Source: Nereocystis luetkeana
Lineage: Eukaryota; Sar; Phaeophyceae; Laminariales; Laminariaceae
DNA: 64,000 bases
NCBI GenBank assembly: GCA_031213475.1
Contig: JARUPZ010000002.1
Coordinates: forward strand, 15,624,738-15,688,737
Reading direction: 5' to 3'
How positions within the stretch are numbered: the first letter of the stretch is position 1; the number at the start of each line of letters is the position of its first letter. Below, in pieces: positions 4,601-64,000 of this stretch. The notes beneath the pieces were generated by a model. That model was given only the letters and a program-made list of their open reading frames with translations. It was not told where the DNA came from and did not search any database. The translations under genes and the position numbers were made by a program.

Positions 4601-7600
4601 TTGTCAGTTTTAACGTCAGGTCGCGAAATGCCCTTCGATACGACACATCCTCGCTCGCAAGTGATTTGGAAGGGTAGTCTATGCCCACGGGAGAGAGAGA
4701 AAAAGAGAGAAAATAATATATACCAGGCATATATATATATAATATATATATATGTATATCAGAGAGAGAGAGAGAGAGCGACCAAACGGGAAGCGAGGCC
4801 CTGTCTCTCTTGTCGAGGAACCGCAACATTCGCTTCGCTGTACGAAGGCATCGCTCAAGCAATGCCCAGCCTGCTGAGCGTAGAAGAGAATGCTATAATA
4901 GGTTCGTCTCTCCGGATTTCCGTGGATGATGTTTCGAACGGAGGGTGCGCGAAACCCTCCCTCTCAGCGGATTGGATCCCTAAGTCGGAGCTTGACAGTT
5001 AAAATACCCCGAGACGGACTTGACAGGTAAACGTCACAAGACGGACATGACAGGTAAACATTTCAAGACGGGGTTGACAGGTAGATCCCAAGACGAGACA
5101 TGACCGGTAAAATGTTCCAAGACAACTTGACAGGTGGATGTCCCAAGCCGAGCTTGACTAGTAAAATTCGCCAATACAGGGTTGATAGTAAAACGCCCCG
5201 AGCCGGGCCTAATCGGCAAAACGCCCCAAGACGGGCTTGACTGGTGAATCGTCGTAAGGTGGGCTTGGCCGGTAAAAAGCTTTCAAGATGGGTTTGACCG
5301 GTAAAACATCCCGAAAACGGACTTGACTGGTAAAATATCCCAAGGCGGGCTTAACAATAAAGTTCTCCCGAGACGGGCTTGACCGATAAAACGCCCCAAG
5401 ACGGCAGGCTTGACCTGTAAAATGCCCCCAAGACAGACTTAACGGGCAAATGCCGCAGGCAGTGCGGTGCCGCAAAACGGTGCCCCGTCAAACTTTACTC
5501 TGGTTATCTTCCACACGCCAACCCACCGGTCGAATGCACTTTGCTTGTTTGTTAGGTGAACGTAGAACAGACGTACGCGGGCAATCCTTTCCTGGTGACA
5601 GTGGCCGGCTACGACACGGATTTCCTCAACGACACGGCGTACGAAGACTACGGCCTCGCCTACAACACAGGGTCGCAGGTGGCGTGCGCTACTACGGCCT
5701 CTGCGCTCTATACGTATGCGTATATGACACACTTTGCCGCTTATAACTGTTGAGTTTTCATGCTATGTACAGTAACGCTTTCATCGTATCGCTGGTGGGT
5801 CCTCTATGCGCACGTACATACTCGTCACTAAATTACGTATAATAGCCACACCGTCGGCCGAAGTGACAAAATAATTTGCGGTTTCGTGCTATAGGACATT
5901 GCGAGCGGGGCGGCGTGGCGTTTTCATGTCGGTGAAACACCGGTACCTATATACGTGCAGAGCGAATCGTGTCGACACCCGAGAAAGTTATCCCAAAACA
6001 CGTCATCAGTAGGCGAGGCTAAAGGCTCAGATGGATGTGTACACCGGCAGGCAGGGACCGCTTCATGCTTCAGGGATGATAACACAACAAGAAAGGCAGT
6101 GACACTTTAACTAATTACGGTTCAACTTCAAAATCTCCAGCACCCATGTTGTCGTGCTCTTCAGCGCATCATCGTCGCTAAAATCCCTCCTTATTTACCA
6201 CCGCCCCCTCGATAAATATTGACGGAAAAACTCGTTTTTTTTTCTCGCGTTTTTTGTTTGCGAAAACAACCCGCCGAGAAGACGCTGTTTTGCCCCTCTC
6301 AGCAGAATAAAAAGGATTTGTCGTCTCGCGTACAATAGCGTTTTTGGACCACGCCGAGCCACAGCTAGCTGCAGCTCATCCCCGATCCTACGTTGCACTC
6401 TGCACCTACCCATCGTCGCAGAAGTCGCTCCCTTTTACCACCCCCCGACGCTATCCTAGGAGATAGATGGTGGCCACAAAAGGCAAAAACTAGGAAGGGA
6501 ATAAGATACGTATATGGGCCATTTGTTTTCAGTTTGAAATAGAGAAAGAGTGCTCAGATGTTGGAGTTGTCGTTTTGGGAGTGTGTAGGAACGACGGTGC
6601 TCCGTCTCGAAAGGGGTGCGTGGTCGATGATCAAAGGGCCATGGCAAGTAACAAAATGAGTACGCCCCCCCCCCCCCCCGCCCCCCCCCCAGACAAAAAA
6701 ACTCGAATCTATCGTTCCGCTAAACCCCGAGTGGAAACTTGTTAACCTGCTACAAAGGCCTACTGTATATAAAGCCCCTTCATGAGGTCCTTGTGATACA
6801 ACCCGTTTAGGGCGGGCTATCGAAAAAGCACCACATGACGCACGCAGTTGGCGAAGAGGAGTTCTCGGCGGAAGTCCTCGATAGCCGAGGTTGTCTATTC
6901 AATCGATGTACCAGGTATGAAACTGCGTACCAACTACTACCAGGTACTGTACATCGTAGATCGAAATCACAAAATAACGTACGCATTGCCTGAACGGAAT
7001 GCAAAACACACGCGCCCTGACATCAAGACGCGGCTCGCAACGTTTCAGGCATCAACCACTTAATCGGTCCAACTCACAGCAGACGTATATTTGAAACAGC
7101 TTTAACATTTTCGTGTTATTATTGTTATTACTATTATTATGGTTTCTCTTGCCACCCGACAATGTGCATGCAGCATGATCTTCAACATTGATCACTCATA
7201 ACTTTCCCGAAAGAAGAAAACCTCGGAAACAAAAGGAAACCCACACATCAAGTCTACCTCCCTTCTTTGCCAACTTTAGGCTTGTCTACTATTGTTGTTA
7301 TTATTGTTCTTCGTATTATTCCATTGGCCATCTGACATTGAGTAGCATACGAGGAACATTAAAGTAGAATCCAGTGACTGCAAAATCTAGAAGACTCTAT
7401 TGAATGAAGAGACCTGAAACCTTGATATAAGACAGAACTGTTTGTCGTCGCTCGCGTACGTATACAGCTCCTGGACTTCGCCGAAACTCTCACCACGCTC
7501 GACGCTCTCCGGGGTGGCATTCTGGTTCGAACGGACCCCGGCGTTGCGGGTACGGCTGACGGGAGCAAGGCGGTCGACTTCTCCATCAACGCCGCCTCTA

Positions 7601-10600
7601 CCGTCTGGGTGTGCAAGTGAGAGGGGTTGCCATTTTTCGTGTCCAGGCTGAGGTAGGACGGGGCTAGCAATACATACCTGGTACCTGATAGTAATCAGAA
7701 CCAAAATATGGAGTGTGAACATAGGGGGGCGTATGACTTTTGGATCCATCGTGGGTTCTGATTACTATACTCATGACATTCTATATGTTTGGCGTTCCTA
7801 CGGTAGAGATTCACTCCAATTTTTCTGAGGCCCCTCACATAAGGAGCTCCATACCTCACCCGAAAACTGATTTCAGCAAAATTCAAACTGCATGCCGATG
7901 AATATTCCCATGACCCGAGCGTACAAAAACGTCATTTTTCGAAACAAGATCGGCATTCCGACGAGTTTGGGTTAAGGAACCCCGTCGTTCGGAAAAAAAA
8001 ATAGCGGAAATGTGCTACCTCTATCGTAGAACGCGTCATCTTGTACTTCGTGTGTAGCTCTTATTTTTTCAGGGCGGCGATTGTTTTGCTCGTGTCACCT
8101 CTGGTGGTAACTATTAATACCTGGTACGTGCATAGTCATCCGGGTCGGGGCACCCGGTCGTGGAACCCTGCAACTCAATGCAATGACGAGTGTAAAACGT
8201 TTTGTCCCGAGACGTTGTGAGACATATAAAACTGTCGCAAGCATCATCATTATCATCGTTGTCTTCATCATCACCGCGAACAACGGGAAGGTAGGTTTGT
8301 CCCTTCCACCGTGCTTGTTTTTGTGCTGTCTACACGCACGTTGTTGCACATTCGTAGTTTGGAATAGCAACATTAATATTAACACGTCCAAAGGGTACCT
8401 CTCGTAAAATCGTCAACCAATCGACGGAAACTCAGATCGGGTTCCAAAAGCTCTTTCGAGGGTTAGGTGCAATTGTCTACGTTTCATAAGAACCACCACC
8501 ATTCATCTGGCCCCAAAACGAGCCTGGCAGCGAGCACAGGGAAGCTTCAATAAGCTCACGGAGGAAAAAGTTTTGCCTCGCCCCTCGACGAGGGCCTCGC
8601 CGATGCCGGGCAGTGCGCCGACTCCGGTGCAAGTTCCGTTGCCTGCACTGGCGGCGCCGCCGGCCCCACGACCGGACAGGGGTTCGGCGAACCGAATACT
8701 CGTTGGCGCCCCCAGGGTAGGAGACTCAGTGATCAAGTCATTAGCGGGTACGGCGGTGGACGAGGTAATGAACGTAGGGGGGTGGAAGACACACATAATA
8801 CCGAAGGATTACTTAGGGTCGACGGCGAGTGCACGGGTCTCAGAGTCCAAGAGGAAACGAGACTCACGACCATGCGGGACGCGGGGGAGCTACCACTGTC
8901 AGGCATTCGAGTCAGATTCCTCCACATACGCGCCGAAGTACGTCTAACGAAGAGGGTAATTCAGGAAGTTTGGGTGAGACCACACAGCATCCGACTGGTG
9001 GCCAATGATAACCTAAGAAGTACATCGAAGTTTGGGTACGTAGGCCTCATCCAGTTCAATATTTCATAGAATAATCGGCGGCAGCGAGAAATAACACTGT
9101 TGTTAAATCGCCAACCAGTCTACGTTACTTCAGATTGGGTGCCAAAAGATGGTTCCAGGGCTTTGTGCGTTTGTCTATTTTTCATAAGAAGAGCCGCACG
9201 ATTCTTTGGACCCAAAACGAGCCTCGCATCGAGGACAGGTAAATACTGTAGGTGTCGGTAAGAACCCAGACCTTCCCAACCCCCCTACAAGCTTAGTGTA
9301 GTCTTTTCTGCATGGTCATGTCATTCCCGGGGAGAGACACCCCGCTGAGCGCGCACTCAATGCGGAGTTTTATCCCGGGCGAGGTCCCCTGCCCCACGGC
9401 AGTAGACCTAGTCCAATCCAATCCAGTACAATACTCACATTGAACGATCGGTGTCAGCGCAACATATAACTGTTGGAATAGCGTGTGGGGTAAGACGGAT
9501 GTTCGCTTTTATAATCCAGGTGCTCCCTTCTTGCTGGTATCACAGACAAAGACTCCCACTCCCATTATCGCAGGTCACGCGTGTTTTTCTGTTTCTTTCG
9601 TGTTTGGGCCGTTGCACAAACCCTCGAACAGATCGACGAACACCCGACTTGATGATCTAGATCTTCCACGGCAGTTTGATGGAGTTCTGATCTGTATACA
9701 CGATCTACATAAAAGCTCATGTCGCCGGGTGGGAGTCGCATTATCTGCCTGATCTGATCTGGGTCGTGTTTCCTATGTAGGTTGTGTCTGTACTACATGG
9801 ATCCTGAACAACATATCGTAAAGGCGGGGTAGGATCTAGGTGATCTATCTGTTGATGATCTATCTGTAGATCACCCATCTATCCACCGTGCGAACCGTTT
9901 ACACAGATGGAATCCGGATGCCCTCGAACACGGAAATCCATCCTGGCTGCTGGCGGAAGGCTGGGAGCTGAATACAACCGTAAGTGAAGATGTACAATGT
10001 ATAATTATCGCGCATGCCCACGCTACCTTAGAAACTGCTTGTAAATACATACCAGGTACTTCATTGCAGCCTGTGGCTTACACGGCATACACGGTAAAGA
10101 GCGTTGACTTCGGATCAGAGGGAGGGGAGGAGGGGGGGGCGGGGCGACCGTTTGTCAGCGCTGTTTTTCTCGGCAACGGCAAATAATAAAGGTGTCGAAC
10201 AAAGCCGAAAAATATATAGTTTCGGAAGGCTCTCGACCAGAGCTTCTCTCCGAAAATGTCTCGTTTAGGAAAAAAATCAAGCGCTGTGAGAAACGATTGC
10301 TCGCCCCCTGCCGTGAACTCAATGCCCCTTGACGGAAGTTGTAAGGTGATGGTGTGGAGTCAGACTTAGCCATTTTTCCTATGTACTTCCTAGAGTTTTT
10401 TTATTAGGCGTCTTCCCCGCAGGGACGAGGCCTGCCGTCCCCATATACTATATACCGTCCTGGCGACGACGACAATGTAGGGCGGGCGCCCTGGGGGAAA
10501 AATTCGCCCCTTCCGAGGTTGTTATTTACGGGGGACCGTAGTAAATAGGGCCTACGGTACACACAAAAAACTATATATTTTCCTAATTTTACAAACAATA

Positions 10601-13600
10601 TTTGGTCCTATTTACTATGGTCCCCCGCAATAGTGTGGGGTATACATGCTCACCGCGGTGGGTCGTCATCTCGGGTTGACACGGAACGGAGTGGCAGAAC
10701 TTTCGGGTGTGACCTTGAAATGAACTTGTGTACAACGAGGCGGTTCCATCTAGTGCAGGGACAGTGGGCCTGACACTCCCACGACGGAACCCTGATACGA
10801 ACAAATTCAGCTTGTGCTTATGTATAGACCCTACCTCAACTTCCAACAAAAATCCCTCTTGGATCCTCCGATCCGCAAAAAAACGAACATCATTGAAAGG
10901 TTATGGTGTACCTTGACAGCAGTGACTCGGCCACGGGCGAGTACTTTAAATGCTGGCACAAGTTCTTCCCCGCGACGGAGCGAAACTACTGGGGCGGGCT
11001 CGAGTCGGCACCGGTGACTCTGCACGCAAACGGCGTCGACGGAAGTGAGACCCAGATGTACGTTGTCGTCGTGGTGCCGGACGTGGACGACGAGGTGACA
11101 AGTGGTGGAAAAGTGCCGGGCGGTAAAATAGAGTTCACGATTACGATACATAGGCGCTTACTTTCGAGCCGCAGGGTATCCGGCGGAATGACGGGGAGGG
11201 GCGTCAACGAGCGTTGCGTGTAGGCCCTTTTGCTGCGGACTCCGTGCAGAAAGGGTATCCGGCAGCCGAGGTTACAGTGCTACGTACTGGGAGAGATAGC
11301 TCGAAGAGAACATTATCGGCGGCCCAAATCACAGCACCTCGAGTAGATATCATAGACGTGAGGAGGTAGACTACGTGGTAGACGTGGGGGCTTGGAGATA
11401 ACATTATCGACAGCCCATATCACGGTGCATAAAAAGCCAAGAGTACACGCGGAGATATGAAGAGGGACCTTGCCCCCCCGTGATGCACTGTCCTTTTCCG
11501 GCCGATTCCTTGAATATTGACGCGCTGGCAGTTCTTTCGATTTTTCGAGGCATGAGGCGATCCCAAATACAATGCGAAACTCGGGTGTGCGGACTTTTGT
11601 TCTATCTCGCTCCTTCGACTCTTGAGGTGCACAGTGATGGCCATGGGCTTGGACTCGATGCTATCTCAATTGGCATGCATGTGCGGAGTATATTTTTCGA
11701 CCGGAGTACGCACAAGGGGATAGGGGGGGAGGGGCATGAACAAGGGCCTCTTGTTTGATGCAAGAATCACGGGCGTTTGACCGCAGTAGTATTGACCCCT
11801 TCTCTATGTAGACCATCACCTGAACGGACCTGAAAGCCGGTCTACGTTTTACCAATCAAGGCAAGGATTATCCTACCATATTTCTCCCAAGTTACTGTAA
11901 CACCACGGACGCTCCATAACCAAATTACTGTACGCTACGGACGACCTATAACCAAGTTATTGTGGAATTTTGTCGACAGGAGACCTCAACGGCCTACACC
12001 CGCGAGCTCGACTCAGACGTCTTCTGGATGATCATGGCCGAACACGTTTTCGTCGCCGCCTTGTTCGGCTGGATCTCTTGCGCGTTCCTTGCCGGGAAAT
12101 CGTTCCGCGTCGACCTGACGGAGGCTCTCCTCATGCAGGTGACTGATGAATCAGGAAGAGTACGAGACATATATTGATACCAGGTATATATGTATATATA
12201 AACAGTCTGCACGCGCTTGCCGAACCTAATTCGTGCCATGGAGAGTTTGGTGTGTTGATCGTTGATAAGTTTTCACTTATTCACCACTTCGCCCTCCACG
12301 CTTGTTGCCGAAACCTTCGTGTCAAGGTGAGGTTTCGATCGCTGAAACCGTTTCCCGCATTCACCGGTGCGCCATCCGCGCTCGTTCCCGAACCTTGCTC
12401 ATGTCAAGGGGAGTGTTTTATAGTTGTACATACTTTTTCCCGTATTCAACCAGTCCGTTCCTCACTAAGTAGTGTATGTACTGGGTTTTGGGGCAAACGT
12501 GTCGGGGTCCTGTCCCTCCGACGTACCTATCGACAGAGTCCAGAGTTCAGTGCCGGCGGGCATGCCTCTTTTGTTCGGGTTGAAAGGATCATTCTCATCA
12601 CTTTTCAGGCGCAGCCCTACCGTATAGTTTACGGCGAGTTTGACGGGACGTCATCCACAGCCGCCCCCCCCCCCCCAACACAAACTGAGCACTACAACAA
12701 AACCACCCGCTACTTCCTGCTGGTGTTCGATATCTTGGTGTGCCCACCACCCGCATCGTTGACCACCACTGCAACCCCGCAATGCAAACCAACGCCGCCG
12801 TGCAAAACCACAAAAACATCAACAACAACAACAACAACGACAACTGAGTAAAGGCAGTTTATATGACGTTACTGTCGAGGCACATGTTGTACGCGACGAA
12901 GAGGACTAACGCCATACCAGGTACATTGGTTGATTGTCCTGAGGTTAGGGTAAGGTTGTAGGCATGTTCGTGTTCTTGTACAGCGACCCTCAACCATGGT
13001 GTCGAATAAGTGGTGAGTTACCCTCCGGTCGCCATCGCCCGAACCCAATACCGATCGCGTGTTGGAATTTCGCATGTCGCGGCGGAAAAACCACGACGAT
13101 CACGGCAATCACACGACTTCACCGGACACGATGACGACACCACCATCACCACCACCGCCGCCGCCACCACCACCACCACCACCACCAACAACAACAACAA
13201 AAGACGGCGGTTTCCGTCGGCAAGCACAAAAGCGTGCTGCGCCACTTGTTAGCGAGCCACGGAAAATCCGACAAGAACGCAATCTTCAGGCGAAACCTGT
13301 GCTTGGCTGCCTTCGCCACGCGTGTGTCGCTGCTGGTGCCGGTGTTCATTCTGTGGGCGTGGGGGCTGGCCACCATAATCACAGTAAGTAGTGAAAATAC
13401 GGAGCCGTGTGAAAGCTTGAACACGCAAACCCTTTAACACGCTAGAGCAATGCCCTTGCAGTGCAGGGGTGGTTGTCCCGACCAACATTTTTCCCGGCAC
13501 GGTAGTAGTAGTCCTAAAACAGTGCAACCCCTGCGGTGGGATTTTTAGCGAAGCTTGAAACACGGAGCAGCAGCGTTCAGTGAAAAATGAGGTCTTATGA

Positions 13601-16600
13601 CGGCGGTGAAAAATCCGCCGCTCTTTTTTATGGTGCCGAGACCCCTTTGATAACAGTTTTGAAAGATGGCTCTTGACGAGCACCTGTACGAAAGTTGGCT
13701 ACTGTACACAAATATCACGGTTCAAAGATCGGCTATCTGTCTTCTTCTCTTTGTTTTTGCTCGAGGCTGAACACGTGTAAATATAATGAGTACGCCGTTG
13801 ATGGGTCTTCAGCGGTAGCAGCTCCGCCTCATCGGGAACCTTGAACTTCCAGAATATTTCCTTTAGACGGTCGCCTCGCGAGTGAATTGCCACGCGCGGC
13901 AGCACGTTTTCCTGAAACGCAGCCGATCCCCGAGCCAAACACACAACACAGAAGAAGTGTGCTGGTTGATTCGGTCTATTAGTGGCAAGCACACAGTGTG
14001 TCGCACAGCCGAGTTTTTTACCAGGGGCCCAGAGAAGTTTGCGCCATTGTTTCTCCATCTCATCCCCCCCTCCCCACTACGGCACGCGCCTTGCATTTTT
14101 ATTGCGAGAGGGCTTCAGCTCTTTCTTTCCCTCGCAGGCTCGCACCGAGTGTTGTTTTAGTCATCACCAATAAACTGCTCAAAAATAAATGTAGTTGTAC
14201 GATAATATACCAGTCGAGATTTGAACCCCCGGCGCAGCCGCCTCAGTAGTAGTGATATATCACAGAATTACCTGCTAAGTGCCTATCGTGCTTGTACGGT
14301 GGCCAGGGGGGGGAAGGGGGGGGGGGGGGGCACATACATACATGCAGTCTTTGAGTACTCCAGGTAAAAACTCCTTGAAGCGGAGTCGTGTGTGATTTTA
14401 CCGTGTGTTTTAACCGTGTGCTTCACCGTGCGCTTTCACCGTGTGCCTTTCGCAGGTGAACCCCCCTGCTGTTGGCTTCCTGCTGTGTCTCGTCGGCACG
14501 GCGTGCGTGATGGGTTGGTTCGGACACAACCATTGGAGGTAAGCGGAGCCAAAAGCTGCAAATCCCTCGGGCAGAGAGATCGTTTATCCCCACTTCATGA
14601 TCTAGATGTCTCCAAGGCAGATCAAATCCGTTCCCGATCTTGCATGATGGTAGCCCATGCTGCCGAGGGGAGGGGGACGTATAGTCTGCATGATCCACTC
14701 CCGTACGAGCACATGTTTCCTGGGTTGGATCTGCGCTACGAAGATTCTGCACAACCTCGCAAATACGGGTAAGGTCAAGAACTACTGCAGATGATCTATT
14801 GATCATGACCGACTCGAGATGCGCAATACTGTGTCTTGAACCGCGGAGGAGAGAGGAAAGGGGGCATGCACACCCTCCGGCATTCTGCATGTCTTTTTTC
14901 TTAAAAAAAAAACTGAAGGTTTCGATTATCGGCCTCCAAAACGAGTACAAGTGCCCCCCCCCTCCCCCCTCCCCCCCCCCTCCCCCCGAATTGTAACCCC
15001 CAATCGCAACCCCCAATTGTAACCCCTAGTTGCTATTTCGAACTGCAACCCCGAATTGCAACCCCAAATTGAACATTTGCAACTGCTTATCGCAATCCCG
15101 AATTGCGACCCCGAACTGCAACCCCTAATTGCAACCCCTAATTTCAACCCCTAATTACCACCCCGAACTGAAACCCCAGATTGCAACCTCTAATTGCAAC
15201 ACCGAATTGCAATCACTGCCGTAGCGGCACGACTGACCTTTCTCTCTCCTCCCCCCCCCCCCCCTCCCCCCAACAACCGGAATGAAAGGGCTCGAGGATG
15301 GATGATGACCTGGCCCTCCCTGTTCTGCGTCGTGGGGTCGGTGCTGCTGCTCCTGGCGTTCCTAGCGGCCGTGGTTTTCGTCGACCCCACGACGTACTTC
15401 GGGTCCGAGGACTTAGACTTCTGTGGACTGACAAGCATTTTCTTCACCCTCGGCATGCTGCCGCTGGCGTTTCTCCTCTTTTCCAACGACGCAAAGGTTG
15501 AACAAGTTATAGAGTAGATACTATGTCCAGCAGCAGAAAGTAATACAGGAATGTCCTCAGGTGCTTCGGCAACAGAAGGCTGGCCCAAGGGTGGATCGTG
15601 ATCCAACCCGACCCGGCCCGTCCTCGCAAGTCTCCTGTCGTTCTTGCCTTATCCCAGATGTGGCACTACTCTAGGTTTACCCTTTTTTGCCAGTTCCGCG
15701 TTGGTGATGGTGGTGGTGGTGGTGATCCAAAAGTGAAATAAAAGAGCTTATTTTCTGCGAAACCTTCGATAAATAAATGTTGAAAATGCTGCCGTTCACG
15801 ACAAGGCTTAAATTATGCGCTTGCAGTTTTTTTTTTTTTAATCTTCGAATTCAGCCTCCAATGTTGGTTGGTGAAAATACTGATGACGTGTGTGTTGGAT
15901 CCTTTCTCCGCGACGAGATTTAAAGAAGAACGCGGCGATCCAACCCAATCTCTCCGTGCCATTTTAAGCACTGTTGTTGTTGTTGTTGTTGTTGTCTTCT
16001 TGGTTGCCCTTTTTGCCCTCGAAGGCAATAGGGTACACACCCCGGCGGGGGTCCTTTCTTCTGTGAAGCGCACAGCATCGCCACCAGAAGGCATTGCCTT
16101 GCGGTCGCGCTTCCGATGTCGTTTTTTTCATCAACGCATTGCATGACCGGCCCTCTCAACTACTGACAAGATGGCGCTTCTGATTCCGTCTCGAAACCTC
16201 CACTTTTTTTGCTCGATGGTGGCATCAATCGATCGGACAGCTGCAGCGCTCCGTGAAGAAGCTCGGTACATTGGTGGGAGAAGTCACGCGCCTCGAGGAT
16301 ATGAAGGGTACCAGCGCCGCCAAGTTTGTGAGTGTCCGTCCTCCTTCCAAGAAGACGCTGCTGCTGTTACGGAGTAATCAGGACCCCATAATGTGCGCTA
16401 AAACCTAGGTGTTCAAGTATTTTTACAGAGCACATTTGGTCCTGATTACTGTGCGTTCCCCCGTATTTACCTTTTTTAGGGCAAACTGCAGTCCCGCTTG
16501 GGCGCGTTAAAGGCATCGTTTGGGCCTACCAGGTATTGATTGTGATTCGGAGAGCGACTCGGATTATCGTAGACTGCTGAAGACTTATATATGGGCGGTG

Positions 16601-19600
16601 GCTTTTATGATGCGGCGAAGAGGGGGTCCGTCGGAATGAGCGGTTTGCTGGTACGTTGTCGTCGTGGACGCATCAATCATTGAACTACAGTAAATAGGGT
16701 ATACATCTATGTTGCTTGCCCGTGAGCTGTGTGAGCTCCTCCTGATCGCCCTCGACTGATACCTGTCCGAGCCTAAGAACCTTTCCAATAGGGCCTTAAC
16801 GTAAACACGTGCTGTGCACGACAACAGAGGCAGCACTTATTGGCCAGAACATTTTCCGACAGACCGACTGACTACTCGATATCGGAGAAACCACCCCAAA
16901 TATCGATGGAATCCCGTCCATGTTGGAACGTTCGTTTGTGCAACCCACTATCAATAGGTCGTGGGGAGTGTTTTTACCTTTTTGTTGTTCTCTATGGTCA
17001 GTTTCGTGTGTAGGCGGGGCAGAGAAAGTGAGGTAGAGAACTCCCTCGAGTGACGAGCATCACGAAGAAAAAAAACGAGGGCTACGTATTACCCCTAGCG
17101 TACGCAGCACGTGAGATTTGTACTAGTTTTAGCGCAAAGCGTGATTTGTCCTGGTTTGAGTGTTTGGGGATGGTCCGTCAAGCGGGTCAAAGCCAGGGCC
17201 TCTTCACGTCTAAATATAATACTTTTGGTGTATGGGCCGGTCCGTCCGGCGGTCAAAGTCAAGGTTTTTCTTTGTTTCATTGTACTAGTTTTAGTGTGGA
17301 AAGGGGCGGTCCGTCAAGCGGGTCAGAGTCAAGGCAATGAATAGCACAGGGAGACGTCCTGAGCGACACAGGTGGTTTGCCGTCCGGCGGATCACTTTGA
17401 AGAAAATGCTTTAAGGATTACCCTGGACTGGGTAATCGGTAGATCTTTTACCCCTATAGCTCAGTAGGTAACACCTTCACATTTGACGTTGTCGAGGGCA
17501 CAGGTTCGAATCTCACTTTGAACGTTTCTTTATAGAAACGCTTGCGCGTGCGGTCCCTGAAGACACATGTCCCTTGCTCCCCAGATATTGGGCCGAAGCG
17601 GGTAGGTCAACGTACGGCCATATACGGTACCGAAGCCCCAGATATCCCGCCGATCAGAGGGAGGGAGAGTGTTAATAAGGATTACCCTGGGCTGGGTAAT
17701 CGATCCGTCTTTTAACCCTTTAGCTCAGCAGGTAACACCTTCACAAAAACCAGTACAGCGATAGACAGGCTTGTTGTGTCGTGCCAACCTGTTTGTTGTT
17801 GTTGTTGCGCGCGTGCCTCCCGCCTTTATCATACGCCTATTAATAGAGAGAAACGACAACCAATGCCTATTATACGTACCAGGTAATCGACAACGAAAAA
17901 AAAACGTGAGCTGTGAGATCGAGGAAATCGTTCAAACTCATCTTTGCGAGCTGTGTGTGATATCATCGTACTTCGATCTCGCACACTGCGGACTTTACAT
18001 GACCTCACGCCGGATGTTATAAGCCCCTCCCTGCCGATATTTTGCGTCCCCAACAACACGTTGCCTGCCGTGGCAGTCACCGACGCTCAAGCGCACCCTG
18101 TCGGAGGAGATGATGTTAAACCCCGGAGGGAACAGCGTGGGACGTCTGGCGGCGAAGCGGGGGGACGTGGGTCACACGGAGGAGCTCATGGCGAAAAACC
18201 CATTTTATGCTCTCCTCGGAGACTGCTACACGATAGTGGTGATACCACGTCGTCAGTCCTCCGTTCGACTTTTTCGCCGTGTTCACAATCGGTGCACAGG
18301 CAGTAAGGGACAGCTATTCAGTACCAACAAGAGAAGAGCGGAAACACGAAATAACGTTTATATAGTAGTTCATGTGAAAAACCAAGCGGTTCTGATATTT
18401 TCGCCCTGAGTGGCCAAACAGTGAGACAACGACCAATGAGACAGGCACAGGCCGAGATTTCACCCGGGAAATCAGAAAATTTGGCAGACACGATGAGCTA
18501 TAAGTCATACCAGGTACTGCTGTAGGTCCACATCAGGAATATATCAGCCCTAATTGATCTACCTAGATCATGAATGGGAATGATCTGTAGATGATATGTA
18601 GATGAGTAGCTCGACTCAACAGCCTCAACAATGCCCCTTTACCCTCCGTTATTGTGGTTGACGTAAGCAAGTAGCGCCGGCAGCTGAGCGTTCTGGCGCA
18701 AAAAAAAAGATGTTGTTGGCAAAAACAAAAAACAAAAAAACAGAGGTGCTTGCGCTTTTATCGCCCTCGAAAGCTCCGACTCCCGCATTACCGTAAGCCG
18801 ATCGGCCACACCAACGCCGCGATAACATGGGAAAACCTTCAGACGCGCAGCACACACTCAACTCCGCTATTTTCATCACACAATATATCGGGCGTAAACT
18901 TGTCGTGTACGTATGAACGAACCCTTTTGACTTGGTTATGTTACAGCGACCGAAACAACGAGGAGAGTAATATGCGTTTTTTAAAATAATAATAATAATA
19001 ATAATAACCGTATAATAGACGATATCATACGAAAAACGCGTGCAGCGGGACAAGCACCCAATCATCGCAATGCACGCTTGTCGCGCGTGTCTCTCTCTAC
19101 GGTGCAGCTTGGACAACGCCTGCATATTTTCTGATTAGACTACCCCAGCCTCTGCTTCGTGTTATGGATGAACATAACTATATACTTCAGATCCAAACAT
19201 GGTCGGTAAACACATGAGGATACATTTGGGGGGCTTATCGCAGTTTCTGGCTACGATGCCCCCTCCCCCGTAGTATTGCCGATCATCCTTGTAGTTTTTG
19301 CATATTTTTTCCTGCGAAGTCTGACAACAGGGGGGCAATAGCTGATAGAGGAGAGGATCGATGCCCTGTTATGTATGTGTGTCGGTATGTATGTATGTAT
19401 GTATGTATGTATGTATGTATGTATGTATGTATGTATGTATGTATGTATGTATGTATGTATGTATGTATGTATGTATGTATGTATGTATGTATGTATGTAT
19501 GTATGTATGTATGTATGTATGTATGTATGTATGTATGTATGTATGTATGTATGTATGTATGTATGTATGTATGACATTGTATGTATGTATGTATGTATGT

Positions 19601-27289: not shown

Positions 27290-27331
<42 letters not shown>

Positions 27332-27462
27332 ATGGTAGTAGTGGTATTAGTGGTAGTAGTTGTAGCAGTAGGAGTAGTAGTAGTAGTAGTGGTAGCAGCA
27401 GCAGTAGTAGTAGTAGCAGTAGAAGTAGTAGTAGTAGTAGTAGTAATAGCAGTAGTGGTAGA

Positions 27463-27509
<47 letters not shown>

Positions 27510-31634: not shown

Positions 31635-31666
<32 letters not shown>

Positions 31667-31679
31667 TCGTTGTTGTTGT

Positions 31680-31734
<55 letters not shown>

Positions 31735-43058: not shown

Positions 43059-43097
<39 letters not shown>

Positions 43098-49000: not shown

Positions 49001-52000
49001 GCATCGCGACGATCAATTCCGTACTACTTACCAGGTAGGATATAGTTTTTATAGAACGCATCCCGAAAACAGACTTCGAGGCGTGAACCGTTTCTCGCTA
49101 TCAATAATCCCGTTTACATACCGCAGGGGCCCACCGAAAAGAAACACCTAATAATGTGAGCAAGACCTGAAACCTCTGCGCGACAGCATCCTTGCACAGC
49201 CTTGAGCATAGCCTACTGCATACCTCTTCGTACGATTTTGTGTAGCGCTCGCCCCTGAGCACGACTTTTTCAATCCAAGTTTCTTCGCGTTCTCCAAAAC
49301 GTGCGGTTTATTGTGCTGTTATTGAATTACTTCGCGTTCGTGGGTCTATGCTGTATAATACGCATCACGAAAACAGACTTCGGGACACGAACCGTTTCTC
49401 GCTATTATTAGTCGTCGCGTTTACATGTTACACGCACGTTAAAAAAAAACTCTGGACACAGTTGTACGTACGTACGTGAATCTTTTTTTTTTTTCGCGAA
49501 AACAGCGTTTCCTGCCCATCCTTCCACGTTTGTTTGTTAATGGGTCGCAAAATAACGCGGTTGGCTGCTGTGTTTCCCGTCAAACTCTTAATTCAGATTC
49601 TGGACAACGAGTCGGTGTTCAGGGAAGCCTTTCGGGACGAACTGATGTGCATCATGCACTTCCAGATTATGGTGTTGCTCTCGGCGGAGGCCCGGCTACA
49701 ACGCGAGGTGAGCCCAACGAGAGTTGTAGCTTGCTTGCTGTTGTTATAGAATATATATAGAATATACCCTTTCGATTCGTTTCTGGAAAACGTAACGTTG
49801 TCGCAGGACGTACCCAGGGCCGCTGTAGCTTGCTTGCGGTAGTCTGTGTGTGTCGATCCAGGTCGCCTGCGTATCCACCGAAGTTGTTCTTCTTGCCTCT
49901 TGGAGGCTTGAGAGGGGAAAAAACGTGCCGAAACGAAAAAGCGGCGATGACGGCATCGGTCTCTCGCTGGCTAGGTATAGGACATACCTGGTACCTGGTA
50001 CATGCTATCCGGCACGCACACCGCAAAAGAGCGCTGTTTATTGTCGTACTGCTGTGACGAAAACGCACACCTGGCATGCCTTTGGTCGCTGTTATACGCA
50101 GCCATTAAGCCTAAAAGGACGCCAGGTATATCTCACAACTTCCTTCTTTCCTTCTTGGGGACCCTTATTCTGCTCGTTCCCCCTCAGTCATAGCTTTTCT
50201 TTGCGCTTCATTTCCTTGCCCCCTGTACCTGTTTTTTTTCTCTCACGCGAGCGCGCGCGCCGCCGCCGTCCTTGCTGCTGGGTTCGTGTACGTGAGTCGC
50301 GCGGCACTTGTGCGCGTGCGATGTGACAAACACCCAAATACATGCCGGTATCGAATTTTTGCCCCGCAGGGCATATTGTTTCGAAAGTTCTTGAAGGAGA
50401 ACCACTTCAAGCTCTTGTCCAATGGGATTGTGCCGCCGGAGACCATTTTCAGCAGCAACAGGTGGGGAAAAATAACAGTGCCCCCCCCCCCCCCCCGTCT
50501 GCCCCTCCCCAAAGTGTCCGAGAGAACGTCTTGTTTAGCCGAATGCCGCTCGCAAGCAGTTTTCATTTGTATGTATTACACGTACTTCGTACACCACTAG
50601 CTGAGAATACTGTTCCTGGTTCGAGTCCGCCCCCAACGACACCCCCTATGTATGTATGCACGTAGAAGCTGACTGTCCGAGCGCGGGGGGCGGCGGCCAT
50701 GACAGGCAAAAAAGTGGCAACAAACAGTGGCCGGGTAGAAATGAGCATTCTGACGCGCGCTGCTTGTGAAAAGGAGCATAAATAAGTTTACAATGGCACC
50801 CTGATTTTTCCGAGGCTAATCACGTGAGAAGCTCTAGACAGTGTAGATGTATATATGTATATATTATATATATACATATATATACTACCTATTAATAGTA
50901 CAGTATATTATATAGACAATACATTAGAGTACATGTTGAGATAGACGAGGGAGCAAAGACAACAAATAGAGTATCGTAGATAAAGCATAGAGGGAAGTAG
51001 ACATAGAAGGTAGATAGACCTTGTGCATAGGTTTCCTTTGATTCCGGGGATTTCTTCTTTCAGGAATGTTCTGAGTGATCAACGTTGAAGCTCATGCTGC
51101 ACATTGTCGAATGACGAGCATAATAATAATATGTGAACTGCAGTATATTATACCCGGTCTACCTCACTTAACAGCCGCGTCCTTTGATTCGAAAAAAACG
51201 TGAGCAAAGCCCAATACCTGGTACACTATTATCCCATGTCGGCTACAGTAGTAGGCGTCTCACGAAAAATATCGCAAAAATCATGGACGTGGCGTAGGAT
51301 TTACCACCCTGGGTGAAAATCTAAGGGCCGATTGGCATTCCTGTTGGTGTTTAAACGGTCCTTATATTTAGTCGTAAGAGTACAAGGGTAGTACATATTT
51401 GGGGGCGTATGCGCTGCTTAGGATTCTTAGTAGAAATATGTCACACCTTTCAAATGAGGCGGACATGATGGATTTAGGGGAGCCGCAATATGAATAGTAG
51501 TGTGCTGGGTTCCCCTCTCTCTAGCACTGTTTCCTGCTCCTGCTTCGTGTAACCTTTTTCTCCTGGGTTCTGTAAGTAGTAGCTACGCTCTTGACGGAGG
51601 GAGAAAAAACGACACCAATGGAAATTTCGACGCCATGTGTAAAGGAGTCACATCCTGAGAGTACCGGTGTGTCGGTGCTGAGATATTCATCCATCATATC
51701 ATTTGTTATTTCCATTGGTATCGTTTCGGCTTCATCAAGAATACAGCTACTAGCTACGGAAACCAGGAGATAAGGGTACACGACACGGGAGCAGAAAGCA
51801 GTGCTGGAGAGAGGCGAACCCAGCACACCATTTTATCGCGGTTCCCCTAACCTACCATGCGCCCCTTGTTTGAGGGGTGTGACATCACTTCTACGAAGAA
51901 TCCTAGGCAGATCACCCCCATATTTATACACTAGAAGAGCATGCAATAAGAAGAAGCAAGGAGTAAGGGAAGCAAGTAAAGTAGATGTTTACAGGATATC

Positions 52001-53440
52001 AAGCCGGAGTACGAGGTGCCAAAGGGAGTCACGTAGACTCGTGCGATAACAACAACAGGACTATCTTAGTTTTTCGTTTGCCTCCCTGTTTTTTTTAAAA
52101 TTGTTTTCCAAGCAAGAGGATATTTTTCAGTCAAGTGCTTCATGAGTGGATCAACCTCGAAGCTCATGCTGTACATTCATTTGTTTGTTGATGATGGCAA
52201 AACACAAAAAAAATGTCAGTAGAACAATACAACATCCGATCAACATGCATTGGATATAGCCCCTGAGTTGAGGAGAGGGTTTTCTCACTGTCAAAAGTTC
52301 GGTTCCTGCCGTAGTTTGTGCCTGGCGTGCCATACGGCTGAATTTCAAGAAGGTCCATCAACACATGACCGACCCTGTTCCTTCGTCAACTCGGCCAGAC
52401 GCGCAACCGCCGATATTGTATGACGGAATCAGTATATGCCGTGAACAAGTCCGTTTGACGATGTCGTTATTTTTCGAGTACACGCGTCTTCATTGTCTGT
52501 TTCTTCCCGTCATCATTTTTTTTTCTGCGTTTGGCACACGCTGCGCGTTGCCGGATGGCAAACGTAACAGCAATGATAGACGACCGACGGACCAAGCGAC
52601 CGTTAGACCGCACGCTGCGATCAAGAAAAAAAATCGCGACATCAAACAAGCAATGGAAAACGCGTACACATGGTCGTATGTAAGTATACTCTCGAACCAT
52701 ATCATGTATAGCGAGTGCTTGCTCCAATCCCCTTTCGGGTAACAGTGATTGTGCGCCTCTATACGAACTCTGAAAAAATGATGCGTGTCGAGGCTCATAA
52801 CCTGGAAAAATGAGCGATGCGTGTCGAGGCTCATTCCACTTCGCACGAGCATACTGAGGTATCTTGCTTCTAGACGCGGAAAGCGGCGAGACTCGGGGTT
52901 ATTTTACAGTGTTATATCTGTTTGGTTCGCCAGTTTCGCTTCGGTGAACATCTCAATGGTGGCGGTGTGGCTGTCGGGGCTGACCGGAGAGGAACGGGAG
53001 CGGTTTCAGATGCTGCGAAGAAAATTCTCCGATATTCAGGTACGCTTTTGAGATGGCGATGTAATAAATTGGTTATGGGTGGAGGAAATACCTGGTAACT
53101 ATTTTCAATTCATATGGATTCTAGAGACCCTTCATATGTGGATGGTATATTTGAAATAAGCGAGGCACATCGCCATCTAGATGGCAACTGGAATAACAGC
53201 AGTAGTAGTAGTAATTGTATTATACGGGTATTATTTATTAGTTTCCACGTCTGAGGCACACGGTATTAATGCACATATCATGATGTACATGCCCTCGTGT
53301 TCTCTCGTAGTGTAGCGGTTATCACACCAGCCTTTGAAGCTGGTACCCCGAGTTCGAATCTCGGCGAGAGAATTCTTTTAGCGCGTTTGACTTCCGTGGG
53401 TCTGCGGCATGTTGAGACTGCGCGGTCTTCCTCGTACTGC

Positions 53441-53477
<37 letters not shown>

Positions 53478-56400
53478 GCTGTTGTTGTTGTTGTTGCTGT
53501 CTTCTTCACATTAAATCGTCCTTTCTACCCAGCTTCATCAGTACACCCAGTGTCCGTCCTGATTCCCTATCCTAGAGAGATACTGATTCTGTGGTCACAG
53601 ACTGTGAGACAGAGGAAGACCGAAAATAAAAACTAAATCGCAAATTCCAGTGTCAAGCAAGTGAAGTGTCAGGTGTCAGCGTACCGGGTACGAGAACACA
53701 ACACAAGCAAGACCGGAAAAATAAGAGCGAAAAGACAATAAAAAACAAGAAAAAAACAAAAATCTGGAATGAAAAAAAGAATAAAAGAAAATACAAACGA
53801 CGCAAGGACTTCAGAAAGGCTGCTATTACGGGGGGCCATAGTTAACAGGACCAAATATTGTTAATAGTAAAAATGGTTACCTGGTACATATATAGGTTTT
53901 TATGTGTACCATAGGTCCTATTAACTATGGTCCCCCGTAATATTAATAGACGGAAAGCAAACTACGTACTCAGGAAGGGCAGGTATCTGCTGCGCGGACG
54001 AAGCAACACGAAAGAGAGGGAGATACAGGCAAAAGTCTGTAAGAGCTAGTCGTACTTAATAACTATTTCTTACAAAATATTGGTATATACTTCGTACTAT
54101 GAGTAGATTTATTCATACCCTGGTATATAAAAGAGAGGGGTAGGGGTGGGTGAATTTATTAAATTAAGGTCGTGCTCGGGCGAAACAAATACTTGTAGTG
54201 TGGATTAATTCACACCTGGTAGTTTTATCTTTGTAGGAGGTCATACGTCCCAGGAGGGTCCGTGCGGACACAATTTATTGAACAGTCAAAGCACTCCGTT
54301 CCGTTATTTCGTTATTTATTTCTTACCTGGTACCAGGTATTTGTTTTACTTCCAAATCTTCAGTTGACCGTCTCGGGTCGCTGATAAAAACACAAGCTAA
54401 ATTTAAAACGAGCGCAACAAGTAAACCTGTGGTATACAATATATATAAATATATATATACCTGGTATATATATCAGGTATATTTACCTGGTATGTACATG
54501 ACTTGAGTGATGTAAGGAGTGTGCGAAAAAACAGTTACCACCTATATTTACCTATACATCCGACAACCTTAGGGATATGAATACAAAAACTAATAATAAC
54601 ACAGGGGTGAATGAAATAGACAAAGCAACCCTTGTTGCTAAAACCGCAGTCCCGTTTTGGGGACGAACCAGTCAAATTCTAAGTAGTTTGCCCCCACAAA
54701 CGGGACTGCAGTCCAAAAAGAGGGCTACAACCTCTCTTTTACCCCGAACAGCAGATTTATCCCCGAGAAAACGCTGTGAAAGTTCAGCCCGAAGCACACT
54801 CATTCGCATGGGCAACTGCTGCACACCGAAAAGAAAACAGACGTATACGTATGTGGTAGATGGAAAAAAACAATTACTGCAAATAATGAATGTATACTAT
54901 CTATAATTCAGACAATACAAATTAAATAATTTCACCACATTCCCAGTAGTGTGTACCAGGTATTTTATAGGGGGGTGTTGTATGGGATATGCATAGAAGC
55001 ATAGCGTAAAAAACCAGGGCACTTCACGGGTCGGGTAAAATAACTCGCTGGTCAGGTCGGGTCGGATCGAGTCAGGGTGGCCCTACCCGATCCTTGAGAG
55101 TTTGAAAACCTGCCGACCAGACCGGACCCGACCCGACCCGTGGGGTTTCAAAAACATCCTGGCCCAACCCGCGGATAGAGGCCATGACTCGTGAAAAGCT
55201 CTGAACAGAACATGCCAGCCTAATCGGACCTGTAAGGGGCTTTCGCATATATTGTGGCAATGAAAATATACCTTATCTTTTCGATGAGACTGGTACGGTA
55301 CACTCTAAAGGTATGGTCTTAAAAATTGCAACGCCTACCACCGTCGCCGGCCACCAAACAATGGATAATTCATGCTATTGCGGGGAAGGATAGTAAACAG
55401 GACCAAATATTGTTAGTAAAAATAGGTAAATATATAGGTTTTTACCGTGGGTCCTATTTACTATGGCCCCCCGTAATACTACTTGGTGCTACTTTAAGAC
55501 ATGAGTTTGGAATGTCCATCTCCGAGGCACACGATTCGGTACTAAAGGCCACATCGTGCCATTGCATGGATGGGTGTCCTATTCTCAGCATGGTTATATT
55601 TAGGTTTGCGTGTCCTTATTGTTGTTTTCGGTATTACCAAAGGGAAAAAAGAAAACAAAAAAAGGAAACTGCTGCTACAGTAGTACTACTGCCGTGATGG
55701 TTGTTCGAAAGTCTGACTTCCCAACTTATGTACGTGCCTGCTTCAGGCACAACACTCGGTGTACTCCACCGTTGATGTTCTTGCCCCCCCCCCCCCCCTC
55801 CCTTTATCCTATTGCTACTGCTCTTCGTGACAAGACCACGCTCACTTAACCTGCTGCCTGCATGTTGCTTCTGTCCTGGATGACAGTCTGATCGTGACGC
55901 CGAGGTGATTAAGGCGGACGAGGCCTGCGACAAGGCGGCGACGGAGCTGGAGAACGGGAGGAGGACCAAGGGAAGGGCCGCCCTAAAGAAGCAGAGAGAG
56001 GTCTTCGGCAGGAGGAGGGCGGAGAGAGCCGACGCCTGGGCCGAGCAGTTGTCGATACAGGTCAGATCAAATCACAACGTTTCGAATCTGTTATGGGTGG
56101 ATGGTTCTCGATACGGGTCAACTGTGTTTTCGAGTCTGGACCCGGGATGTGTGTTGGGGAGGGGGGGGGGGGGGGGTATGATGGATCGATTCACCGCGTA
56201 GCTTGATTTTCCGGGTGGGCCTATGCAGTAAGAATCAGAACCCACAATGGACCCAAATATCATATATCTCCTTTTGTAAACAATATATTTTGGTTCTGAT
56301 ACTACAGTATCTGTGGTCAGCCGCAACAGCGTTTGGGGGTATAGGGGACATGGGAACAGGTCGGACGCTTGTTTTAGAGTCTCCACCGGCGATGTATGCT

Positions 56401-59400: not shown

Positions 59401-62400
59401 GAGCGAACTGGTCGGTGTTTCAACAGAATACCTCGTCGATTTTTTTTCCCGCACAGCGGGCGGCGTGTCTGCAGGATCAGGGCGCGGGGGGAACGAGAAC
59501 GGTGCGACGATTTTTTTTTCATCCGGGCCACAGCGTCGAGCACGGCTGCGATGTAAAATGACCGCAAAATAAGTCCTCCACGGGAGCGGATTCGACGTTT
59601 CTCAGGGGGCCTATTGGAGTCTCTGGGCTATTTAGTTTCGTTTCATTCTCCATCCCATCTCTTATTCTCGCCCTCACTCTCCGGCTCTCTCCCTCTCGGA
59701 GCTCCGAACCGGGGTCGCGTATAGCGGCCACTCTTTCGACTGAGACCAACGAAAAATCACGCTCCTGCAACCATTTTGCCTCTCCCCGCCCCCCCCCGAT
59801 CACGCTATATATACATACTTTCGGAAACACTGACTGCAGCGAAATGGCGAATCGACGTATATAACTCATCCATCCGTTGGGGAAAAAACAAAATGCAAGG
59901 TGTCATTGTCGGTGAACCCAGACATCAAACTGTTCGACGAGGGGACTGACCCGGACGACGTCAGGCGAGGAGCGTTCGCGGACTCGTGGCTGCTGTCGGC
60001 GCTCGCCATGATATCCGCAGCCACCGTAGGAGACGGTGGGGTCGACGAGCAGGTGCGCTAATATATTGCTAGACCGAATGCAGCGTGGGGCGGGGGGGGG
60101 TGTACTCGATAGGAGATAAGTGCTCGATCTCATGCATGGCCGTAGTCGTATGTATGAACTTAGGACCCTCGCGTCCCTACAAAGTCGAGACTGAGCACGT
60201 CGGATTCTCACCGACCAGGGGGGGGCAGGGGACGGGTGAGGTGGCTATATGGTGTATCACAATTTCCTGTATCACTTCGGGCTGGACGGGGGTAGAGCGA
60301 TATGCAAATGCGATGATTTTATTAAACAACTTCTTCTACTCGTAAGCAGTGCGGGTGAGTTGGAGTGTAAACAGAAGACCGGGTGTAAGCGGGGAATGGA
60401 GAGTGGGGAGGAGTAAGGTGGATATGGTGTATCATATTTTCCTGTGTTGCTCTGGACCGGGTTAGAGCAATACGTAGATTCGATGCCATAACCCACAACT
60501 TTTTCTAAGCAGTCGGAGTTTTTTTTCCCTGTTTCCAGACGATGGGCGAGATTCAAGGGTCCGGTTGTGTCAAGAATGGACGCGACGAAAAATAAGCCAG
60601 GTGGCCTTCGCACCTTAACGAGGGCTCTCTGTGTGATGTGTGATGATGTTCGCACCCAACGCTTGTAGTAGGGATCAAGAGCTCACAAGCGACGGGCTTC
60701 TTCGCTGGTGGCAAGGCACCGAACGTTGTTAAAGAACTTTCTGAAAGAGACAACCCGCGTTCTATTTCCTCGAAAGAAGCATGCGGAACGTATACAACAC
60801 ATGGCGCGGCTTGCACCCGGCCCAAAAGGCCTTCCAATGGACGTCGTCAGATGTGTCACAGAGATTGAAGATACGGCCACGTTCGACGCCATGTATCGCA
60901 GCCGGCAGTAGCCAGGCATTCGAAACCCGCGATGATCGACGGTACACAATTGTGAAGGAAAAACCCCCCAGGAAAACAGGGAGTGGTTGAATAAAGTCGT
61001 GATCAAACCACCCAAACCGAACGACGCACCCGACGCCGTAGAGTCAATGCGCGATGAGCTGAAAAATGTGTACTGTTTGTCTCGTCTGCCGGAGCATTAC
61101 AATCCAAAAAACAAGATAGTTACATATAAATTGGTGTCGCTAGCTAGGAACTGGAAAAAGCAGCCACAGCAGTAGAATATTTTTAAATGCCGTCAACTTG
61201 TGTGCATCGGTGGACAGCGTAGGTGTACGGTGGACGCTTCAAAAGCAACTCGAAAGGGCTTCGCTGTTATTTTCGTCGAAGTACAAGGAGAAAAAGGAAC
61301 GAACGAATGAACGAACGAACTCGCATTGCTCGCTCTCAACTCCCACACGAAAAGAAAATGACATGCTTTTGGCACAACCTTACCCTACTCCCTACTTGTT
61401 TTTTGTCACACAGATCGCCCAGCTGTTCTTGAGCCCCATCGGCGGCGACGGCCTCCCTGTCTTGGAATCCACCACCGGTGCGTACGCCGTAAAAATATCC
61501 GTCGACGGAAAGTGGCAGGTGGTGATCGTGGACGACTTCTTTCCCGCCCTGGAGGCAAGCAAGGCCAACAACGAAAACAGGGGAGTAGCGGTGGGGCACA
61601 GCTACGGCGCTCGCGAGCTGTGGGTGTCGTTGCTGGAGAAGGTGAATGAAATCCCAACGCACGGGACGGAAACGGGAGGAAAATGGCGTCCCCCTGGGAA
61701 GTTGCCTACTGTGAATAGCAGGATCTGTCTGGTGGTGTTTTTTTCTGAGGGCTATCCGGAAGTACGATAAACCCTCAGTTAGTTGACTTTTTTTGACACG
61801 ACGGACAGATCACGATCTATCTGTCTACAGTAAAGTTAGATTATTTGGGTCCTAACAGCCGTTATGGTACGTTGGGGGATCTGTCTACTGTAGTATAGAT
61901 CCAACCCTGGAAACGATATCATACGAAGCGTGTCTTCTAGGGTACATACAACTCTCACCCTGCGGCATGATCAGCTGAATCATATCAGATCAGAGATATA
62001 TATGTACCCTGAGAATATCTACCTGGTATAGGCAGATCGAACCGGTAATATATCTGTCCGATGTGCGCCTTGTTTGTTGTCCACGGTTGTTGTTGTTGGT
62101 ATGCTACCTTCACATAAAAAGGCCGACGGCACAAGTGTCACGAGTCACGAACGACTAAAATAGCAACAGCAGTGTCGTCTGTTTCAAAGTCTTTCACACC
62201 CGCGCGCGAAACGGCGAGGGAGATTTTTTTTGTGTTATACCAGCACTGTTTATCTCTGTTACCGACCATTTCATTTGACAGACTGGATTGGATGAGGCCT
62301 CCCACCCCGGCGAAGGGTCCTCGCCTGTGGATATACCATCACCATGCCGTGCTGAGGATGCCTTCAGCGGAAGTACCCTCTGCGCAGCAGCAATGTTTCC

Positions 62401-64000: not shown

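Follow-up and report, generated by a model that had tools for sequence, protein, structure and literature searches.

Footprints, TA targeting and imperfect joining of ends are already known from cut-and-paste DNA transposons. The accessible text of a paper on Tc1-like elements (PMC7913693) describes for Sleeping Beauty (SB), ZB and others a TA target, TA duplication, a short excision footprint (2-4 bp) and a palindromic AT-rich target, and states that ZB prefers ATATATAT, SB and Bari behaving similarly. For the Stowaway miniature inverted-repeat transposable elements and Osmar5 of grasses, the accessible part of PMC1925063 reports fragments of the terminal inverted repeat (TIR) of 1-4 bp beside each TA, which together can reach at least 5 bp. 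We analysed a window of 64 kb of the brown alga Nereocystis luetkeana (C2:15,624,738-15,688,737; assembly of 465 Mb in 1,987 contigs), in which the 9-bp palindrome TACCWGGTA recurs, and compared this motif with the footprints of such elements.

We consider it likely (probability about 0.86) that the TACCWGGTA copies are the scars of insertion followed by excision of a TA-targeting cut-and-paste transposon with ends TA/CCAGG...CCTGG/TA, because empty sites with a single TA were found, a target preference surrounds the motif and a minor class of 6-nt scars is asymmetric. A footprint had been proposed before in a sequence-only reading of the window; the genome-wide excess and the insertion at an empty TA that it called for were found, the CCAGG-ended element was not. 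The palindromic target consensus and the CCAGGG:CCTGGG asymmetry of the 6-nt footprints are two supports that go beyond the checks suggested there. The behaviour of the source fits that of a Tc1-type element; membership of Tc1/mariner is not claimed, since neither transposase nor ends were found.

Abundance of TACCWGGTA and its insertion at TA

The 35 copies listed by the sequence-only reading are all present in the window, with A at the centre in 14 and T in 21 as counted there, and 100 dinucleotide-preserving shuffles gave a mean of 0.49 copies (largest 3). In the whole assembly the motif occurs 182,395 times, against 1,744 for the same pattern read backwards, and the window is slightly enriched (35 copies vs 25.1 at the genome mean). 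A sample of 264 kb, made up of the window plus twenty 10-kb stretches taken from seven contigs (2.5 kb of N in one stretch), holds 105 copies, with 0 to 7 per 10-kb stretch; TACCWGGTA ranks first among all 256 W-centred 9-bp palindromes in this sample, the runner-up being ATATWATAT with 23. Four further loci (L001-L004), fetched because of motif pairs, were excluded from densities and flank statistics and included in the empty-site test. The copies cluster, at least at a spacing of six bases, as 586 motif pairs are spaced exactly so, eight times the expectation from mean density. Only 3 of the 105 copies lie inside stop-to-stop frames of at least 200 aa (4-fold depletion per TA, p 0.004), which fits selection against 7-bp frameshifts; target choice may account for it as much as selection, with base composition possibly contributing, because the GC content of long frames probably exceeds that of the target preferred by the insertions. 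Plus-strand copies in the sample are TACCAGGTA in 40 cases and TACCTGGTA in 65 (two-sided p 0.019).

For the empty-site test, both flanks of each footprint were joined with one TA and searched against the window and the sampled loci, and alignments were kept that covered 15 nt on each side and were ungapped over the core +-8 nt with at least 72% identity there. An ungapped single-TA paralogue was found for 9 of the 120 footprint sites with full flanks and a filled paralogue for 2 (window position 32353 has both), compared with 27 empty and 197 filled among 1,073 other TAN5TA sites (Fisher p 8e-7). Of 166 alignments between paralogues that contain a 7-nt gap, 68 are due to the motif (alignments, not independent events). 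Because repeat copies without the motif have a single TA at the same place, the motif is, as read from these alignments, a 7-bp insertion consisting of CCWGG and a duplicated TA; insertion at TA with duplication of the TA is also the habit of Tc1/mariner elements. The sequence-only reading had named an ancestral, conserved motif as the outcome that would speak against it, and the paralogous empty TA sites within this genome indicate insertion instead.

Clear cases include window 32353 and 53878, which lie in the same repeat family at different TAs. The former reads AAATATATACCTGGTAGGTTTTT, and other copies have AAATATATAGGTTTTT or nearly so at the same place. Likewise, L038 has TCAGGTACCTGGTATACAATT at about 330 vs TCAGGTATACAATT in four empty copies, the site at 2269 in L026 has 15 empty copies, that at about 2236 in L036 has three empty alignments (L033 and L034 included), and the sites at 8154 in L006 and 1747 in L003 have an empty counterpart in L009 and L004, respectively. 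L033, L034, L035 and L036 are copies, 86-96% alike, of a repeat of 2.2 kb. The empty-site test relied chiefly on a small dispersed element with inverted repeats, about 110 bp long and ending in sequences close to CTATTACGGGGGACCATAG; many further copies of it occur in the sampled loci besides those in the window.

Target preference, inferred end sequence and age of the probable scars

The flanks of the motif had been described as not conserved in the sequence-only reading; comparison of 177 flanks (33 of 210 were dropped for a second footprint or the like) with 28,336 TA dinucleotides revealed weak, palindromic conservation. Frequencies relative to background TA were raised for A at -1 (.51/.29), Y at -2 (.65/.49), A at -3 (.47/.28), T at -4 (.44/.26), A at -6 (.48/.26) and W at -7 (.79/.54), giving the AT-rich consensus WA.TAYA-TA-TRTA.TW, which is palindromic by construction and describes the average side, both flanks of each footprint having been pooled. 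A palindromic AT-rich target preference is thus shared with Tc1/mariner elements, and the core TAYA-TA-TRTA is similar to the ATATATAT of ZB (both according to the accessible text of PMC7913693). The W at -7 and the A at -6 are points of difference from the target of Tc1-like elements; a further difference from these elements is that no source element was seen in 276 kb and among the listed matches of the end scans described below.

With its T at -7, A at -6, W at -3 and G at -1, the footprint is itself a fair match to this target, and double footprints (five in 264 kb) and also triple ones may have arisen for this reason. Such footprints mark sites that were used repeatedly. One site carries a double footprint in L004 and a single decayed footprint (AACCAGGTA) in L003. 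A search for longer scars with both ends gave 2,544 matches; the roughly 50 places listed consist mostly of footprints in twos or threes, separated by short spacers. In the Stowaway and Osmar5 case, TA-fragment-TA footprints in an intron and recurrent gains and losses at a single site are similar, and the footprints were mixed and seen in single genes (accessible part of PMC1925063), whereas here one footprint dominates genome-wide and elements were not found. The SB-like TACWGTA, the parallel drawn by the sequence-only reading, is 2.3-fold above expectation in the sample (96 vs 41.9) with a strong C at -1; it was rejected as a second footprint, as it lacks the target signature at -3/-6. In the accessible part of one review (PMC2874221) the SB footprint is printed as TAG(T/A)CTA.

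The sequence of the ends is suggested by the 6-nt scars, to which TACCCTGGTA belongs; listed as a near-match by the sequence-only reading, it is a member of a distinct class and no random near-match. Scars of 5 nt with A or T at the centre do not discriminate between CCAGG and CCTGG ends, and those of 6 nt do, as a slip by one base would turn CCAGG ends into CCAGGG or CCCTGG and CCTGG ends into CCTGGG or CCCAGG. All nine 6-nt scars in the 264-kb sample are CCAGGG/CCCTGG. Genome-wide, the pattern with the target consensus ahead and the next base not T was found 699 times for CCAGG (control 46) and 242 times for CCTGG (control 28). Among the 100 listed matches of each, 44 of the former read TACCAGGGTA and 3 of the latter TACCTGGGTA (both by eye; Fisher 1e-12), although three of the 44, alike on C4, probably represent one duplication. 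Because 6-nt scars are nearly all CCAGGG/CCCTGG, we infer that the element ended in CCAGG, or in CCAGGG with a variable stagger.

A candidate course of events is as follows. The element would insert at a TA, which is duplicated; upon excision the nontransferred strands would be cut some 5 nt within the element, so that two 3' overhangs of CCAGG remain, and these would anneal via CC/GG with a central A-A mismatch, which repair to A or T would convert into TA-CCWGG-TA. Annealing slipped by one base would give CCAGGG or CCCTGG as a minor route. Both the palindrome with its W centre and the 6-nt slip class are compatible with a footprint from two such ends, and a 5-nt stagger and a DDE-type transposase are presumed accordingly. 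A small number of copies, each jumping at an ordinary rate, could suffice given a long time, with near-neutral scars accumulating while whole copies, presumably removed by selection, became rare or lost.

In the sample 111 one-mismatch variants occur vs 55.9 expected under an order-2 model, alongside the 105 intact copies, and transitions (34) are in excess of transversions (17). This suggests that the near-matches are decayed footprints with about 6% change per base; the estimate of about 5.8% (3.7-8.3%, Poisson noise alone) depends on the background model.

Search for the source and rival explanations

Across 276 kb, the form TACCWGG...CCWGGTA expected for TIRs occurs as 631 pairs; the closest inner match, in AT-rich sequence, was 15/20, in a search made with no shuffled control. 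The genome-wide end scans took in CCAGG and CCTGG followed by a base other than T, so that ends starting CCAGGT were excluded by design. In the CCAGG scan, the recurrent continuations CTGTTCA..., AACACC... and GCCAGCG... (4, 5 and 2 places) proved repeat-internal with shared flanks. The C10 and C9 groups of the CCTGG scan were rejected as element ends, being segmental copies (four of the five listed on C10 and two of the six listed on C9 were inspected). C10:9.96-10.93 Mb and C9:5.35-5.93 Mb are recent segmental duplications with identical or nearly identical motif contexts, the duplicated places on C9 lying about 114 kb (once 124 kb) apart.

Transposases were searched for with three profiles, DDE_3 (Tc1), Transposase_1 (mariner) and DDE_1 (pogo-type). 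The check proposed by the sequence-only reading, for an element of the form TA-CCAGG...CCTGG-TA that carries a DDE transposase, yielded none among the listed ends and with these three profiles, CCAGGT starts excluded; a DDE/D transposase between CCAGG inverted repeats, as Tc1/mariner membership would require, was thus not seen within this incomplete search. Mos1-type mariners have an inverted repeat that begins CCAGG and a footprint of 3 nt. The Transposase_1 profile finds nothing in this genome that would represent them, its control being silent too.

DDE_1 gave at least 28 matches, five of them equal, with a best E of 3.4e-28. No TA-CCAGG inverted repeat was found in the eight loci (of 28) inspected with 1.5-kb flanks, and a looser inverted-repeat scan gave three weak pairs, none with CCAGG. 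L025 and L027 show no difference over 288 bp and 99.7% identity over 395 bp, the sequence outside being different, and the shared stretch starts TA-CAGTGGGGGGCCCTATATAG (from about 37 in L025 and about 1221 in L027). By eye, L027 retains three acidic residues where the motif normally has them, and one is lost in L026, where a match to HTH_Tnp_Tc5 lies below its cut-off. A pogo-type element with a DDE_1 transposase has therefore probably moved recently, to judge from this comparison, but with an end other than CCAGG. The pogo-type elements of this genome have a TA-flanked end and a transposase family of the TA type in common with the presumed source, whereas the one end located, in 2 of the 28 matches, is TA-CAGTGGGGGGCCC (= TA-CAGTGGGG) and would not give CCWGG. 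An element of the piggyBac kind was dismissed, as it is expected to use a TTAA target and to excise seamlessly, while the target here is TA and a 7-bp scar remains.

Several observations weigh against the excision reading. No CCAGG-ended element was seen in 276 kb, nor did one appear in the 100 listed matches of each end scan, and genome-wide there were no matches to DDE_3, although three control genomes were positive, nor to Transposase_1, with its silent control. The footprints of Tc1-like elements measure 2-4 bp (accessible text of PMC7913693), compared with 5 nt and a minor class of 6 here. Four of the nine empty-site cases come from the one small inverted-repeat family (window 31312, 32353 and 53878, and 6350 in L013), and three are weaker (L020 7419 and L021 3808, in local arrays, and L004 1595, a double). 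The A:T ratio of 40:65 on the plus strand is not predicted by any strand-symmetric model and may stem from clustering or chance.

The absence of elements (in 276 kb and among listed end-scan matches) and the great uniformity of the product would also suit a micro-insertion, in which aborted transposition or templated end joining adds seven bases at TA without any whole element. We regard this as improbable, since transposases are known to integrate with such a target preference and since a palindrome with an ambiguous centre, together with the slip class, fits two identical CCAGG ends. Somewhat less probable still is a functional palindrome that selection maintains as a site of protein binding or modification. 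Abundant HIP1-type palindromes and methylation sites are the types to compare, and a perfect palindrome in huge genome-wide excess that is rarer in long open frames would agree with such a role. However, the motif is a 7-bp insertion at TA relative to paralogues and is located in different repeats, the target-site signature lies outside it, overlapping doubles and triples occur, and one-mismatch decay shows an excess of transitions.

It seems highly improbable that the motif belongs to a longer repeat family and spread together with it. Some listed near-motifs do sit at fixed places within repeats or duplications, but filled paralogues were found at only 2 of 120 sites vs empty ones at 9, the flanks of the 35 copies in the window differ (by eye), and 32353 and 53878 occupy different TAs of the same repeat. 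We give equally little credit to programmed or developmental DNA elimination, similar to that of the internal eliminated sequences of ciliates but imprecise, with the unedited DNA absent from the sequenced tissue. It would explain TA-bounded sites in very large numbers and elements that are not seen, yet the decay of about 6% per base suggested by the near-matches, the empty and filled paralogues and the reuse of sites make the scars seem inherited and accumulating.

Features of the window and significance

Coordinates of the footprints, small inverted-repeat copies and other features within the window are given below.

Table 1. Probable footprints and other features of the 64-kb window
Feature	Position	Strand	Remark
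Footprint TACCAGGTA	6909..6917	.	exact motif
Footprint TACCAGGTA	6938..6946	.	exact motif
Footprint TACCTGGTA	7675..7683	.	exact motif; CCTGATA directly after, possibly a decayed second copy
Footprint TACCTGGTA	8118..8126	.	exact motif
Footprint TACCAGGTA	10050..10058	.	exact motif
Footprint TACCAGGTA	12178..12186	.	within 233-aa stop-to-stop frame (candidate frame, not an established gene)
Footprint TACCAGGTA	12915..12923	.	exact motif
Footprint TACCAGGTA	16527..16535	.	exact motif
Footprint TACCAGGTA	17877..17885	.	exact motif
Footprint TACCAGGTA	18508..18516	.	exact motif
Footprint TACCTGGTA	26915..26923	.	exact motif
Footprint TACCTGGTA	29111..29119	.	exact motif
Footprint TACCTGGTA	31312..31320	.	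8 empty paralogues, those listed being small inverted-repeat family copies
Footprint TACCTGGTA	32353..32361	.	within small inverted-repeat copy; 16 ungapped empty paralogues, 1 filled
Footprint TACCTGGTA	33897..33905	.	exact motif
Footprint TACCAGGTA	34652..34660	.	exact motif; adjoining CACCTGGTA, possibly a decayed copy
Footprint TACCAGGTA	38680..38688	.	exact motif; putative splice donor CAG/GTA
Double footprint TACCAGGTACCTGGTA, first half	42073..42081	.	
Double footprint TACCAGGTACCTGGTA, second half	42080..42088	.	
Footprint TACCTGGTA	42317..42325	.	exact motif
Footprint TACCTGGTA	42374..42382	.	exact motif
Footprint TACCTGGTA	46129..46137	.	exact motif
6-nt footprint variant TACCCTGGTA	46160..46169	.	
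Footprint TACCAGGTA	49029..49037	.	exact motif
Double footprint TACCTGGTACCTGGTA, first half	49985..49993	.	
Double footprint TACCTGGTACCTGGTA, second half	49992..50000	.	
Footprint TACCTGGTA	51215..51223	.	exact motif
Footprint TACCTGGTA	53089..53097	.	exact motif
Footprint TACCTGGTA	53878..53886	.	within small inverted-repeat copy, different TA from 32353; 13 ungapped empty paralogues
6-nt footprint variant TACCCTGGTA	54116..54125	.	
Double footprint TACCTGGTACCAGGTA, first half	54324..54332	.	
Double footprint TACCTGGTACCAGGTA, second half	54331..54339	.	
Footprint TACCTGGTA	54458..54466	.	exact motif; TA-rich tract
Footprint TACCTGGTA	54484..54492	.	exact motif; TA-rich tract shared with 54458
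Footprint TACCAGGTA	54954..54962	.	exact motif
Footprint TACCTGGTA	62020..62028	.	exact motif
Footprint TACCTGGTA	63432..63440	.	exact motif
Small inverted-repeat copy	about 10526-10634		one of eight in the window
Small inverted-repeat copy	about 19728-19837		
Small inverted-repeat copy	20783..20892	+	single TA corresponding to 53878
Small inverted-repeat copy	about 32293-32410		
Small inverted-repeat copy	about 39943-40052		
Small inverted-repeat copy	48267..48376	+	single TA where 32353 has a footprint
Small inverted-repeat copy	about 53823-53942		
Small inverted-repeat copy	about 55375-55478		
Long TATG array	19370-19669		about 74 units
323-bp unit in tandem pair	30203-30833		92% alike; related to 23325-24155 and, inverted, 36144-36401
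Long GGGTC array	33029-33438		82 units
tRNA gene	53301-53372		Rfam
Exon-like frame	61144-61770		calpain (Peptidase_C2) match

The length of 5 nt alone is not new, because the fragments left by Stowaway and Osmar5 can sum to at least 5 bp (accessible part of PMC1925063). What seems new is the scale, one uniform class of scars, and the absence of a visible source. In the open-access literature we found no paper with the TACCWGGTA motif and, under the wordings used, none on a 5-bp transposon footprint, and noticed no description of a comparable genome-wide footprint load. That a new kind of TA-targeting transposon, ending in CCAGG and cut with a 5-nt stagger, went through about 180,000 cycles of insertion and excision and is now absent or nearly so is a tentative proposal, to which we give somewhat less than even odds.

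If true, only its scars would testify to this transposon; at roughly 0.4 per kb, the scars would be a main source of small insertions in this genome. Excision footprints have usually been examined at single genes, in assays or by comparison of two genomes, as far as the accessible parts of the cited papers go. With a single scar class at 182,395 copies, target choice, repair outcomes and the lifetime number of jumps would become readable from the genome itself, and the frequency with which DNA transposons jump without net growth would become testable. A simple count of palindromes can, in this way, expose a transposon that is lost or rare.

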